This document shows, piece after piece, positions 9,127 to 13,745 of a stretch of 40,205 nt of DNA. Source of the stretch: a virus. The notes under the pieces are model-generated. The model ran no database searches, had not been told where the DNA came from, and saw only the letters and a list, made by a program, of their open reading frames with translations. Both the position numbers and the translations under genes were made by a program. How positions within the stretch are numbered: position 1 is the stretch's first letter; the number at the start of each line of letters is the position of its first letter. Location of the stretch: positions 1 to 40,205 of the IMG/VR virus record IMGVR_UViG_3300032322_002926; one strand, 5' to 3'.

Positions 9127-9498
9127 ATGTTCAGTTGTGAACAGGATCCCCTCGCCCTGCTCATTGAATTAACTCCAAAGTTAGCAAAGAAACGTTATCG
9201 ACAATCTATTTACGAAGCCTGGGACCATTGCTGCGGTTATTGTGGTGAACCGGCAACTTCTTTGGACCACATCATACCAAGATTTAAATCTGGCTCAAGT
9301 TATCGAAATAATTTGCTTCCCGCTTGTCGTCGCTGCAATTCAAACAAAGCGAGTTCAAAGATGGAAGATTGGTATACACAACAGGCCTATTTCAGCGAAG
9401 AGCGGTTTGCCCGCATCCAAGCCTGGATGTCAGATGATTTAGTAAGCCTGCTTTCTTATAATGTTGATATATTGGTTCCAAATCTTGCGGCAGGATAA
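9127..9498 (+). CDS. HNH endonuclease
   Basis: A 123-residue protein with a full HNH/treble-clef arrangement: C-G-Y-C (Cys36, Cys39), S-L-D-H-I-I-P (His48), N-N-L (Asn61/62) and C-R-R-C (Cys67, Cys70). The size and layout match small phage HNH nucleases, which can be free-standing homing enzymes or helpers of DNA packaging. Its stop codon overlaps the ATG of the large virion gene by one base, suggesting that it is part of the late transcript rather than a recent insertion. Confidence 0.8.
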   Translation: MFSCEQDPLALLIELTPKLAKKRYRQSIYEAWDHCCGYCGEPATSLDHIIPRFKSGSSYRNNLLPACRRCNSNKASSKMEDWYTQQAYFSEERFARIQAWMSDDLVSLLSYNVDILVPNLAAG

Positions 9499-11978
9499 TG
9501 CTTTACTACTTTAATAATCAGTGGAGAAAGCAGTATGAAGATACAAACAATAGAACGGATTATCCAACGGATTATCCCGAATATTACACAGAAACACGCC
9601 GCGACAGCGACGGCAATTACGAATGGGCCAGGGATGAGACGGGGGATGTTATTCGCCGCCAGGGAGAAGACGGTGAGATTCGTCTTGTTCCAGCCACATT
9701 CACTGTGGCAAACGAAGAAAATATTGCCTTAAACCGAGCACACAGAGAGATTAACGAAAAAAATAGAGTCCTTAACGAAGCAAATGCAAAAAAGAATGCA
9801 ATTTACGACAAGGTTTTATTGCAAGCAACAAACACAAGGGGCGGTGATTATCTTGCCCAAAAAGCGGCGTTTCAAAACCTAAGCAGAGAAGCCAAGGACG
9901 CAGGGTTCAACGATACTCAAATCAATGAGCTGTTTAATGCTTACAACGAGTTTTATAAAGCGGAAAAAATAGGAGCAGGATGGAATGTTGACTTGGGCTC
10001 CAAGCCTCCGGCTGGGGACTTTGATCCCAACTACTACCTTGCACAAAATCCACAAGTTAAGGCAAAGTGGGATGAAGCGGTAAGGCAAGGCGATCTCGAC
10101 ATCCTGGCACAATACAAAGACCCTAAAACGTTTGCGCTTTCTGATTACACCTTTGTTGGCAAGCCAGCTGGCAAACGTGGAAATAAAGAACAAGAACTAA
10201 CAGAAGCAAAACAGTACCTAGAGAAAAAGCCAACCGATTCCGACATTCAAGGAATTAAAGACAAACAGCTTGGCATTACTTATGAAGCCTTAAAAGAAGT
10301 AAGGCCTGGCACTGAATTAGAAGAGATTGCGTCGGAAGAAATCGGTGCAGACATTGTTAAAAAAACAAAACAATTTGGCGCCTTAACCCAAGATGTTTTA
10401 AAAGACACCATAGAAGAGATGCAAAAGGCAAAAGCACAGGAGCAGCTTTTGTCGATGATGGGCGGCCTCCCCGGATTCCAGGAAATTTTAAATATTAATC
10501 AAACGCTGAGCGATTCAATTCTTGGCGATTCCGGCGTGGGTGGAATTCTTGCCTTTAGCGGCGGCGGTTCCAAGGCAGAAGAGAGCCTTGAAAAGTCGTT
10601 GCAAAAAATGACCGGTGTAAACACCAGTACGATTTACAACTGGCAACAATGGTTTGATAACAGCCTAAAAAAGCAATATGAAAACGATTTGGAATTAGGT
10701 CTAACCAAGAAAGAAGCCGAAGAAAAAATTAATGTTGAGTCAAATTTTGCCAGGCAGTTTATTGATCAGTATTTGATACCTCGCTTTAATCAATCTAAGA
10801 CTGTTAGCGAATTCATGGAATACGTTAACGTCAAAGACGAAGAACAAAACCCATTTCAGACTCAGGATATCCTCAACGCTGCTGCAGACGTTGGGCAGCT
10901 AAAGTCTCAAAGTTACTTAGATCAAATTAAACAAATTCAAGACGCTTACTTTGACCCAAGGTTTTATTTTGATCCCAACAACAATTTAAAATCAGAACAA
11001 ATCAAAAGTCTTGCGGGAGTTAAACAGCAGCAAGAGTCCTATCAAAAACAAGCGGAAACAGTCGCGGCTGATTGGGAAGAGGCAAAGAAACAATTCGCGG
11101 CTCAGAACGGGTATTGGTACCAGCAAGCCTATAGGTTTGGCGTCGATCCAAACGATAAAGATGCATTCGCAAAACTGCATTTCCAAGTGAAAGGGCAAGC
11201 GCAGGGCTTTGATGCGGCAGAAGACTTGTGGACGCCCGCAAAGGTTCAAGATTATATTTATGCCACAATTCTTCCGGCAATTAAAAATCAAGTTGACAAC
11301 ATGTCAATCTTTGGTGAATTTTTAAAGCCGGACGAGTTTACTGATAATTTACTTTCTAGTGCCAATGTGAACCCGGAAGACAAATCAACCTGGGGCGAAG
11401 TGCTCAAAACCTTTGGTTTGAACACATTCCAAGGTTCGTATGATGAATTAAAAAGTTACATTTCAGATACGTTTAAAACAGTTTCCGCGCTAGAACTTAA
11501 TGAGCAACTGAAAGAACTTCAAAAAAAAGGTATTAAACCAACTCAAAAAAACCTTGGTGTTTTTTATATTGAAAAGCCAACTGATACGGCCACCACACCA
11601 GAAGGAGAAACCGCGCTTTACAAAGCATTTAAACAATATGGATATGCCGGAGATGAAAAAGAGTTTTACGAAAACTTCTTCCCTGACTTAGATATTGAAG
11701 AGCAAAAGCTTTTAACTCAAGCCGGAAGCGGTACGGGCGGATTAAAGTTTATTGATTTAGAGAAGCAGGATCCCCTCTCTGCTTTTGGGACGATCGAAAA
11801 ACTTATGGGTGGTGAAGAAGATGGTTTTACCAATATTTTTTCTTTGGCAGACAAAGAAGACGATGAAGATAAAGAAGATTACTTTAAATTAGGATTAGAT
11901 GATGAAGATGAAGATTACAAGTCCAAAACGGGCGCTTCAATTCTCGGTGAATTCACATCTTTCTTTAAAGGTTTCTGA
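9498..11978 (+). CDS. Large putative internal virion / ejection protein
   Basis: An 826-residue, highly charged and mostly helical protein. Residues 75-115 and 390-560 are rich in Lys, Glu, Gln and Asn and look like coiled coils (E-I-N-E-K-N-R-V-L-N-E-A-N). Around residues 310-350 there is a hydrophobic Gly-rich stretch (L-L-S-M-M-G-G-L-P-G-F and G-V-G-G-I-L-A-F-S-G-G-G) that could insert in a membrane. The C-terminus has a dense acidic run (D-K-E-D-D-E-D-K-E-D-Y) before a hydrophobic end G-E-F-T-S-F-F-K-G-F. This layout fits a tape-measure or internal ejection protein. No family match claimed. It overlaps both neighbours by one base. Confidence 0.5.
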   Translation: MLYYFNNQWRKQYEDTNNRTDYPTDYPEYYTETRRDSDGNYEWARDETGDVIRRQGEDGEIRLVPATFTVANEENIALNRAHREINEKNRVLNEANAKKNAIYDKVLLQATNTRGGDYLAQKAAFQNLSREAKDAGFNDTQINELFNAYNEFYKAEKIGAGWNVDLGSKPPAGDFDPNYYLAQNPQVKAKWDEAVRQGDLDILAQYKDPKTFALSDYTFVGKPAGKRGNKEQELTEAKQYLEKKPTDSDIQGIKDKQLGITYEALKEVRPGTELEEIASEEIGADIVKKTKQFGALTQDVLKDTIEEMQKAKAQEQLLSMMGGLPGFQEILNINQTLSDSILGDSGVGGILAFSGGGSKAEESLEKSLQKMTGVNTSTIYNWQQWFDNSLKKQYENDLELGLTKKEAEEKINVESNFARQFIDQYLIPRFNQSKTVSEFMEYVNVKDEEQNPFQTQDILNAAADVGQLKSQSYLDQIKQIQDAYFDPRFYFDPNNNLKSEQIKSLAGVKQQQESYQKQAETVAADWEEAKKQFAAQNGYWYQQAYRFGVDPNDKDAFAKLHFQVKGQAQGFDAAEDLWTPAKVQDYIYATILPAIKNQVDNMSIFGEFLKPDEFTDNLLSSANVNPEDKSTWGEVLKTFGLNTFQGSYDELKSYISDTFKTVSALELNEQLKELQKKGIKPTQKNLGVFYIEKPTDTATTPEGETALYKAFKQYGYAGDEKEFYENFFPDLDIEEQKLLTQAGSGTGGLKFIDLEKQDPLSAFGTIEKLMGGEEDGFTNIFSLADKEDDEDKEDYFKLGLDDEDEDYKSKTGASILGEFTSFFKGF

Positions 11979-12346
11979 TGGCCGACAAACGTAAAAAAGC
12001 TGCGGCGGCCGCCAAGATCGCTAAAGACAAGATGACTTGCAACAAGCCGCAAAAAACTCCCAGCCATCCGACCAAGAGCCATGTCGTCAAGGCCTGCAAG
12101 GATGGAGAAGAAAAGATCATTCGCTTTGGTCAGCAAGGCGTAGAAGGCGCAGGCAAGAATCCCAAAACTGAAAAGGACAAGGCACGTCGCAAGTCTTATT
12201 ACGCTCGACATAATGCTCAAGATCCAAAACCTGACATCATGTCAGCCCGTTACTGGAGTCACCGCGTGAAATGGATGATCTTAAGTGGTATGATTATTCC
12301 AGAGTTGCTTCACACATGTCTGCACGTTGGAATTACGTTGACGTAA
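11978..12346 (+). CDS. Conserved small basic cyanophage protein, C-terminus extended by an insertion
   Basis: A 122-residue protein. Residues 1-99 are a Lys/Arg-rich protein of a type I recognise from cyanophages (I-I-R-F-G-Q-Q-G-V, G-A-G-K-N-P-K-T-E-K-D-K-A-R-R-K-S-Y), in which the protein normally ends just after W-x-x-R/K-V-K-W. Here the R-V-K-W codons (to 12274) run on into 23 extra codons, out of frame with an HNH gene that starts at 12271. The sequence H-R-V-K-W-stop appears again downstream of the HNH gene at 12885-12902. The extension M-I-L-S-G-M-I-I is therefore probably a by-product of HNH insertion. Function unknown; nucleic-acid binding is plausible. Confidence 0.65.
   Translation: MADKRKKAAAAAKIAKDKMTCNKPQKTPSHPTKSHVVKACKDGEEKIIRFGQQGVEGAGKNPKTEKDKARRKSYYARHNAQDPKPDIMSARYWSHRVKWMILSGMIIPELLHTCLHVGITLT
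12260..12274 (+). repeat. Upstream copy of the H-R-V-K-W coding repeat flanking the HNH gene
   Basis: CACCGCGTGAAATGG, in frame as residues 95-99 of the small basic gene. The downstream copy at 12885-12899 encodes the same peptide with only synonymous changes. Confidence 0.8.
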
Positions 12347-12894
12347 GTTGTGTTACTTGTCAGGCTTTCGGCAAAATTCGGATTGATCAATACAACAGAA
12401 AAAATAAAACATGGGAATGCAGAAGCTGTGCTCGAAAAGGTAAAAAAATTACAGTAAAAAATCCTTGCGCAAAACATGACACACAGAAGTTAGGCGCCTA
12501 TAAGAGTTATTGGAGGGCAAAACGCAGAACACAAACTAATCACAAAGGCGTATATAAAGACATTTTGTTTTTATTTAGTTGTTTTGAAGAGTTTTGGGAT
12601 GAACTTGGGCCAAGGCCTGAAGGGCACACACTTGAACGAATTGACGTAAAAAGTCACTACATGCCTGGAAACGTAAAGTGGGCCAGCATGTCAGAACAGT
12701 GTCGCAATAAAACCAATAATATTTACGTCGAATATCAAGGTAAATCTATTTGTTTATACGATGCTGCAAAATTATCTGGAATTGATCCTAAAGCAATAAA
12801 AACTCGAATGAGTACGGGATGCCCTAAGGAGATGCTATTCAAAAAAGGTCGCTGGCATGTAAAGGCTCAGCAATTTTTCCCGGCCACCGTGTAA
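12271..12894 (+). CDS. HNH homing-type endonuclease
   Basis: A 207-residue protein. The N-terminus has a zinc-ribbon (C-V-T-C and C-R-S-C). The middle matches a well-known phage HNH family: H-D-T-Q-K-L-G-A-Y-K-S-Y-W, then L-G-P-R-P-E-G-H-T-L-E-R-I-D, then Y-M-P-G-N-V-K-W-A-S, then Q-C-R-N-K. The C-terminus has a small helix-turn-helix-like module (L-Y-D-A-A-K-L-S-G-I-D-P-K-A-I-K). It overlaps the end of the basic gene in another frame, and the host gene ending is duplicated after it, so it looks like a mobile insertion. It is AT-richer than neighbouring genes, which supports recent gain. Confidence 0.85.
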   Translation: MDDLKWYDYSRVASHMSARWNYVDVSCVTCQAFGKIRIDQYNRKNKTWECRSCARKGKKITVKNPCAKHDTQKLGAYKSYWRAKRRTQTNHKGVYKDILFLFSCFEEFWDELGPRPEGHTLERIDVKSHYMPGNVKWASMSEQCRNKTNNIYVEYQGKSICLYDAAKLSGIDPKAIKTRMSTGCPKEMLFKKGRWHVKAQQFFPATV

Positions 12895-12899
12895 AATGG
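12885..12899 (+). repeat. Downstream copy of the H-R-V-K-W coding repeat, followed by TGA
   Basis: CACCGTGTAAAATGG then TGA (12900-12902) reads H-R-V-K-W-stop, the expected natural end of the small basic gene. It differs from the upstream copy at two synonymous third positions (CGC/CGT and GTG/GTA). Confidence 0.8.
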
Positions 12900-12912
12900 T
12901 GACGCCTCACCA
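12897..12912 (+). promoter_or_regulatory. Hairpin built on a Trp-stop (TGGTGA)
   Basis: TGGTGA (12897-12902), loop CGCC, TCACCA (12907-12912): a perfect 6-bp hairpin ending 8 bases before the ATG of the 41-residue gene, which has no Shine-Dalgarno. Confidence 0.5.
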
Positions 12913-12920
12913 GCCTAAAA

Positions 12921-13046
12921 ATGGCTAAACCTAAATCAACCACTGCTCTTAAAATTGAATCCCGTCCCAAAAAAACCAAACAAGGACAGGGAATGAATTC
13001 TAAACCTAATCATGGCCGCAAAAAAATGCGCGGTCAAGGTAAATAA
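12921..13046 (+). CDS. Very small basic cyanophage protein
   Basis: A 41-residue, strongly basic protein with P-K-K-T-K-Q-G-Q-G and H-G-R-K-K-M-R-G-Q-G-K. I recognise this kind of short Lys/Gly-rich peptide in cyanophage genomes, usually next to the small basic gene found here at 11978, which suggests that the HNH gene separated two formerly adjacent genes. No Shine-Dalgarno precedes the ATG; a hairpin does. Function unknown, possibly nucleic-acid binding in the virion. Confidence 0.6.
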   Translation: MAKPKSTTALKIESRPKKTKQGQGMNSKPNHGRKKMRGQGK

Positions 13047-13059
13047 ATTGTGTATGATT

Positions 13060-13085
13060 GGGGGTAATAGAAAAGTGTTACCCCC
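13060..13085 (+). promoter_or_regulatory. Perfect hairpin abutting the lysozyme start codon
   Basis: GGGGGTAA (13060-13067) and TTACCCCC (13078-13085) form a perfect 8-bp stem with a 10-base loop. The last C is immediately followed by the ATG of the lysozyme. No accessible Shine-Dalgarno is seen, so the hairpin may control lysozyme translation or mark an RNA processing site. Confidence 0.6.
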
Positions 13086-13745
13086 ATGTCTGACGTTACT
13101 CGTGCAATCACTTTAATTCGCAAGTACGAGGGCTTTAACGAAAAGGCTTACCCCGATCCTTATACCGGTAGTGAGCCTTATACGCTAGGGTATGGAACTC
13201 AGTTTTATCCCGATGGCTCTCCCGTAAGACAGGGGCAACTTTGTTCAAAAGAAAAAGCGTTGGAATATTTATTTCATGAAGTGCATCTAATTGAAGGGCA
13301 GCTGGAAAAACTCAACCTAGGGCTGGACAACTGCATGGCACAAGCCCTGATTTCTTTTATTCATTCCATTGGATGGGAGCCTTTTCTGTACAGCGAAATT
13401 GTCGATTGCGTTGATCGAGAAGATTTCTTTGGTGCAACACAATCAATGGGGAGCTGGATCTTTGATGCGGATCACAAGGTTGTCGGTGGCTTGATTGATC
13501 GGCGCAGGGAAGAAATCAACTTATTTCTTGAAGAAATTGACGCTAACCCGTGGTCCTCAACAGAGATTCTTCTTCGCGCTTTCCGCAACTACAATGCTGC
13601 TCCGTACCAGGTTCGCGCAATCAGAGCACTAGAAGAAAACATTAGCCCGTACATTCTGTCTCGATTTGCCAACGATTTTGACATTGAAAGCTCTCCGTGG
13701 GCATCTTTCACAGACGAAGAGCTGGAGTCGATATTTATCATGTAG
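13086..13745 (+). CDS. GH24 (T4-type) lysozyme, likely endolysin
   Basis: A 219-residue protein. The N-terminus fits the GH24 fold: I-R-K-Y-E-G-F with catalytic Glu15, Asp24 (A-Y-P-D) nine residues on as in T4 lysozyme (Glu11, Asp20), then Y-T-L-G-Y-G-T with Thr33. Further on A-L-I-S-F-I-H-S-I-G-W and G-L-I-D-R-R-R-E-E match the C-terminal lobe of the family. Residues 150-219 are an extra helical acidic tail of unknown role. It would hydrolyse host murein at lysis; no signal peptide is present, so a holin would be needed. A hairpin directly precedes its ATG. Confidence 0.85.
   Translation: MSDVTRAITLIRKYEGFNEKAYPDPYTGSEPYTLGYGTQFYPDGSPVRQGQLCSKEKALEYLFHEVHLIEGQLEKLNLGLDNCMAQALISFIHSIGWEPFLYSEIVDCVDREDFFGATQSMGSWIFDADHKVVGGLIDRRREEINLFLEEIDANPWSSTEILLRAFRNYNAAPYQVRAIRALEENISPYILSRFANDFDIESSPWASFTDEELESIFIM

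Follow-up and report, generated by a model that had tools for sequence, protein, structure and literature searches.

Gene content of the locus

The window, by which we mean the whole stretch of DNA analysed here, is a virus record of 40,205 bases. It carries a gene of a family of unknown function (phrog_7595, hereafter the target gene), followed by an HNH endonuclease gene, a short native gene and then a lysozyme gene. The features of this region are as follows.

11978..12274, + strand: target gene, 99 codons to the conserved C-terminus MSARYWSHRVKW (phrog_7595, E=2.4e-28; ORF call)
12247..12274, + strand: donor-derived replacement target end, 28 nt, with 6 synonymous differences from empty relatives (comparison with L005)
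12275..12315, + strand: leader between the last target codon and the HNH ATG, 41 nt (relatives' leaders)
12275..12346, + strand: 23-codon target extension MILSGMIIPELLHTCLHVGITLT plus stop codon, with a 31-nt overlap of the HNH start (ORF call, leader survey)
12285..12294, + strand: extended -10-like motif GTGGTATGAT (GTGGTAY in nearly all relatives' leaders)
12316..12894, + strand: HNH endonuclease gene, 192 aa (phrog_3377, E=2.2e-21; family alignment; AlphaFold2 mean pLDDT 88)
12883..12899, + strand: displaced original (recipient) target end GCCACCGTGTAAAATGG (equal to empty-site relatives from -17, then for 209 nt past TGG)
12900..12902, + strand: orphaned TGA, the original target stop codon (empty-site relatives L001-L006)
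12921..13046, + strand: next native gene and downstream border, 41 aa (phrog_516 family; ORF call)

The original prediction was that the sequence encoding HRVKW occurs twice, once on either side of the HNH gene, and both copies are present: CACCGCGTGAAATGG at 12260-12274 and CACCGTGTAAAATGG-TGA at 12885-12902. They share 13 of 15 bases, and the two differences are synonymous and fall at third codon positions. The upstream gene also carries the 23 extra codons that had been noted, its ORF (11978-12346, 122 aa) running past W99 to 12346. The native stop codon of the target gene is gone in the window, and relatives terminate in VKW-stop. The length of the downstream copy needed revision, as the displaced stretch measures 17 bp (12883-12899) and reaches slightly beyond the extent first described. 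This stretch also provides the HNH stop codon, TAA (12892-12894).

The HNH protein additionally matches the profiles phrog_374 and phrog_8790, and neither Pfam nor NCBIfam profiles gave an HNH match for its 192 residues. Its layout comprises a zinc-ribbon-like N-terminus (C12, C15, C35 and C38), an HNH region at about residues 48-137 and a helical C-terminus. The family alignment contains a conserved DRID..HY..GNVRW motif; within the LDRID segment, we could not recognise the His that classically comes first among the HNH catalytic residues. When examined for a beta-beta-alpha metal fold, the AlphaFold2 model aligned best with the HNH enzyme PacI over residues 48-137 (Z 6.1, a middling value) and also with I-HmuI (Z 2.5, a weak one); Foldseek returned no significant match for the model, and a sequence search of solved structures yielded nothing credible. 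As evidence for HNH identity, the PHROG profile match is firmer than these structural values.

Translation of the HNH gene probably starts at the ATG at 12316, where protein conservation begins in all 21 aligned relatives. A start at 12271 was considered and rejected, as that frame is closed by a stop codon in 8 of 33 distinct leaders and conservation begins at 12316. Elsewhere in the window, a second, unrelated HNH gene (9127-9498; Pfam HNH E=1.8e-9, phrog_2214) lies directly 5′ of an 826-aa gene.

Empty sites and the origin of the upstream copy

The original prediction anticipated an empty site with a single HRVKW-TGA, and exactly this is found in six near relatives that lack the HNH gene. 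These loci (L001-L006, 6 of 80 IMG/VR target relatives, from six metagenomes) encode an identical 99-aa protein and end in ...TGGAGCCACCGTGTAAAATGG-TGA-CGCCTCACCAGCC; the downstream copy in the window, with its flank, reads the same. The repeat is not due to chance. HNH-less relatives on six contigs from six metagenomes have exactly one copy, matching the downstream one; because the end of the empty relatives is identical to it, the downstream copy is the displaced original end of the recipient. The earlier statement that relatives end at V-K-W also holds, in that element-free relatives end in (K/R)(V/T)KW-stop. Two observations could have overturned the idea of an insertion, and neither was made. 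No HNH-less relative with both intact copies at the site was found, the tandem copy of one locus (L207, below) resembling a scar left by deletion. The 23-residue extension, in turn, is confined to loci with the element and to its deletion derivatives.

Comparison with L005, the left flank of which is >99% identical to the window, locates the exchanged sequence. All six mismatches are synonymous; they lie 7, 10, 16, 22, 25 and 28 nt to the left of the junction, and none occurs at 29-426 nt (398 nt). Relative to the rest of the 3-kb left flank, the 28-nt tract is strongly enriched in differences (Fisher p=6e-9). On the right side, the window matches empty relatives exactly from 17 nt before the end of TGG through 209 nt beyond it. 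L004 and L006, empty loci that are more distant, share the L005 version of the end; with these as outgroups, the 28-nt tract of the window is the derived one. The 28-nt tract and the 17-bp displaced end thus back the earlier suggestion that the element carries a diverged donor's copy of the target end. By this comparison, a donor version that came in together with the HNH gene has replaced the last codons of the recipient, of whose old end 17 bp remain.

The same pattern recurs in L067 and L069 relative to L060-L064, where mismatches fall only at 4 and 7 nt and none follows out to 369, and in L025 relative to L038, with mismatches at 4-18 nt. Three of these empty relatives of L067 (L060, L062 and L064) have an apparent other HNH gene about 330-640 nt 3′ of the target, 33% identical to the family.

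That the copies flank the insert, with a core repeat of about 9 bp in many elements, could also be expected of a transposase-like insertion that duplicated its target site, the copies diverging later. However, the tract in the window differs from the recipient at 6 of 28 positions whereas the next 398 nt differ at none, which excludes drift as the cause. Moreover, copy lengths vary, the insert always occupies one site in one gene family, and the HNH gene is the only ORF, with no transposase. We regard this explanation as extremely unlikely.

A search for the donor by exact 30-mer returned one match, L207, an HNH-less locus of another lineage. At about position 9491 (reversed strand), L207 has two tandem target ends, TGG-TGA-ATAGACTAAAGTGG-TGA, the first of which has the window's 30-nt donor-type sequence; the arrangement is probably the scar of an element loss. 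This scar, together with deletion derivatives, shows that losses occur, and such losses would be the source of all empty relatives if the filled state were ancestral. Yet recombination between the two copies would leave donor bases at -28, -25 and -22 (positions numbered leftward from the junction), and these are absent from L001-L006. In addition, more distant empty relatives share the recipient version, and the GCCCGTTACTGGAG tract is found in no empty relative of this phage lineage, only in L207 of the other lineage. An ancestral filled state is accordingly very unlikely, and gain of the element by an empty gene is the reading that we follow below.

A family of HNH genes at one site

An IMG/VR scan with the HNH protein alignment, in which the leader sequence was not used, recovered 58 loci. 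A search with the window's HNH protein alone gave two loci, and the alignment query was needed to reach 58. Each of the 58 HNH relatives immediately follows a target gene with the ending (K/R)(V/T/I)KW, a phrog_7595-type 3′ end. A scan for the junction pattern retrieved 42 contigs of the same architecture.

The right ends of the elements are variable. AARTGG plus a stop codon is present at or near the end of the HNH gene in 27 of 35 distinct elements, and three of the eight elements without an exact displaced copy have a version with one or two mismatches. The displaced copy ranges from about 6 to 18 nt, the HNH stop codon is the TAA within GTAA-ARTGG in about half of the elements, and the junction of L063 and L029 is located past the displaced copy. 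We infer that such ends are more compatible with joining by short homology than with a fixed footprint of transposition.

Some elements depart from the common form. In L114 and L117, the displaced copy is degenerate and the HNH ORF lacks its usual stop codon, continuing in another frame across the next gene to give a 184-aa product. In L046, an HNH gene at the same site has a different N-terminal half, the target stop codon is retained and the C-terminal half is close to that of L025, which points to domain exchange between elements.

The leader and the target extension

Exactly 41 nt separate the target's TGG from the HNH ATG in each distinct locus of the junction-pattern set that has this ATG; one further leader, that of L251, has GTG in its place. 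A rival possibility is that the insert is a self-splicing intron, or is otherwise removed at the RNA level; the duplicated ends would then mark the splice boundaries, and splicing would restore the transcript. Excision of one 625-nt repeat unit would indeed restore the gene exactly. However, no group I, group II or other Rfam intron family is detected in 11900-13200 at E<=5, and in the typical insert the HNH ORF takes up everything except about 41 nt. The common 480-nt form likewise leaves only 41 nt plus the copy outside the HNH ORF, into which a ribozyme would not fit. The displaced copy is absent or shifted in 8 of 35 elements, and several distant members retain the target stop codon ahead of the leader. 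Splicing, which the earlier reading had left open, is the least likely of the explanations weighed here, and we continue with an element that resides in DNA as a free-standing gene.

The leader motif GTGGTATGAT is a possible promoter for the HNH gene. Its GTGGTAT core is found also in distant members that retain the target stop codon (L259-L263 and Synechococcus phage S-CBS2), and it resembles the target end AAGTGG-TAA as well. In phage T4, the promoter of I-TevI is overlain by an operator that resembles the homing site (PMC2988022). By analogy, the HNH protein might repress its own gene through the target-like leader motif, which we put forward as a possibility and not as a finding.

The reading frame of the extension (frame 0) is open in all 33 distinct main-clade leaders, and column shuffles of the leaders were equally open in this frame in 4 of 300 cases, a comparison made on related sequences. 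Synonymous enrichment within the extension is unconvincing (44 of 300 shuffles, again with related sequences). The target stop codon has been removed in the main clade specifically, and sister members retain it. Five free-standing T4 endonucleases overlap upstream ORFs (PMC2988022), and by analogy translational coupling of the HNH gene to the target gene is plausible.

Mobility, hybrid targets and decay

Nearly identical HNH genes reside in diverged targets, from which we conclude that the element moves. HNH genes that are 91-97% identical lie inside targets that are 74-84% identical; for example, L217 and L218 share 97.4% identity in the HNH gene and 83.7% in the target core, and the corresponding values for L235 and L236 are 93.3% and 74.2%.

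Target genes occur in two types, ...YYARHNAQD...SARYWSHRVKW and ...FKARH...SAAYWADRVKW. The first part of the L083 target is 92% identical to L066, of the YYARHNAQD type, whereas its last 130 nt are of the FKARH type and find their best matches, among the loci compared, only in other HNH-filled loci. The displaced 3′ copy of L083 and its flank are again L066-like. Both hybrid targets, L083 and L105, received about 130 nt of a foreign gene end together with the element, and the L083 hybrid seems best explained by a longer co-conversion. More generally, YYARHNAQD and FKARH represent alternative C-terminal halves on similar N-terminal halves (L083, L105 and L116 versus L066 and L076), a distribution consistent with swaps driven by the element.

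Five loci (L102, L103, L104, L122 and L043) hold elements in which the HNH gene is deleted or decayed. These decayed elements and the scar in L207 point to a cycle of gain and loss.

A model for insertion with replacement of the gene end

The alignments and junctions described above make it very probable, in our judgement, that the HNH gene is a free-standing homing element whose specific site is the 3′ end of genes from a single phage family. The sequences show that the mobile unit comprises the donor's last target codons, the 41-nt leader, the HNH gene and a short closing stretch of target end. Its insertion replaces the end of the recipient gene with that of the donor and leaves the protein unchanged up to the last Trp, and in the window the recipient's old end and stop codon stay downstream as a 17-bp relic.

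In the proposed mechanism, the HNH enzyme would cut the end of an empty target gene, and the break would be repaired with the element of a co-infecting phage as template. Homology within the target gene would serve to join the left end, and the short VKW-stop homology the right one. Expression of the HNH gene may then come from the leader promoter, from translational coupling to the target gene or from both, and removal of the target stop codon would let the target's ribosomes pass over the HNH start.

Judged from the window's event alone, the cut would fall within -28 to -17. The target ends of L217 and L218 (= L089 and L087) differ at -13 and at -16 to -18 and are the same at -12 to -1, such that their 5′ boundary likely lies nearer -12, to the right of -13 and outside the window's bracket. 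Because the two boundaries disagree, a single family-wide cut position is not established.

As an addition to homing, the replacement end could be a recoding that confers resistance to the nuclease rather than a passive product of co-conversion, a proposal made for the WHO elements of yeasts (PMC7282813). The six synonymous changes within 28 nt would suit such recoding, as would the window's event, whose insertion point falls outside the region in which the cut is placed. When 29 filled ends were compared with 34 empty ones, however, the two groups differed only at -4 (p=2e-4) and weakly at -7, and no position between -36 and -8 set them apart. On this comparison we reject recoding of the whole end, and resistance as such seems unlikely.

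Comparison with known elements

The closest arrangements that we found are in fungi. WHO elements of Torulaspora and Lachancea yeasts consist of a chimeric target with a donor 3′ end, an endonuclease gene and the recipient's old 3′ end (PMC7282813). As in the phage family, the endonuclease gene follows the target, the target 3′ end is replaced at each integration, the recipient's old 3′ end is displaced downstream as a fragment that serves as homology, and both hybrid targets and decay into relics occur. In contrast, WHO proteins are HO/VDE-like, of intein type with zinc fingers, and are found in nuclear yeast genomes, whereas those described here are HNH proteins of 140-190 aa in phages. WHO fragments are about 400 bp long; in the phage family the displaced copies span about 6-18 bp, and the window's replacement end 28 nt. 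No tandem clusters were seen among the phage elements.

Fungal mitochondria contain mobile ORFs (mORFs) with duplicated C-termini (Allomyces atp6; Glomus atp6, atp9, cox2 and nad3; PMC3630166), which likewise pair an endonuclease ORF with an inserted, diverged C-terminal end that differs synonymously, the native C-terminus being displaced downstream and nearly identical to close relatives. Unlike the HNH gene of this virus record, mORFs are of the LAGLIDADG or GIY-YIG type, lie in mitochondrial DNA and replace longer ends. By mechanism, the phage element appears to work like WHO elements and mORFs, and its HNH-type nuclease and phage genome place it in neither group.

The T4-like free-standing endonucleases (mob and seg; PMC2988022) are also phage-borne and intron-less, are of HNH type in the case of mob, and show co-conversion; several overlap an upstream ORF and may use translational coupling (PMC2988022). 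The phage element described here differs in that it carries the gene end itself and the old end persists. A search by terms of the T4 review (PMC2988022) met no mention of duplicated target-gene ends in the text so reached. The HNH gene gp047 of phage S-CBS2 (NC_015463) is a homologue that occupies this site too, lying 45 nt past the stop codon of a target ending in SSRVKW and having the leader motif GTGGTATACT; here, by contrast, the target stop codon is retained, and the HNH protein is 41% identical over residues 16-147. The S-CBS2 leader (L126, 1955-2000) has a terminator-like hairpin, GGAGGGA-GAGA-TCCCTCC-TTTTTT, before the HNH ATG.

Among the papers accessible to our literature search, we found no phage report of this arrangement. 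Whether phages have their own elements that home and replace a gene end, independently of WHO elements and mORFs, is to us an evenly balanced question. The candidate is the family of 58 HNH loci at one site, in which the unit would consist of the target's last codons and a promoter- or operator-like leader resembling the target end, with removal of the stop codon coupling HNH translation to the target.

If true, phages would join yeast nuclei and fungal mitochondria as places where homing replaces 3′ ends, and a third nuclease fold would be added to those that act in this way. The natural alleles, of which there are dozens in the filled, empty, hybrid or decayed state, would allow homing tract lengths and the cycle of gain and loss to be measured directly in small genomes. 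For annotators, the family is a warning of false C-terminal extensions and wrong HNH start sites. For the phages themselves, such an element would explain how the ends of a conserved gene are swapped between lineages.
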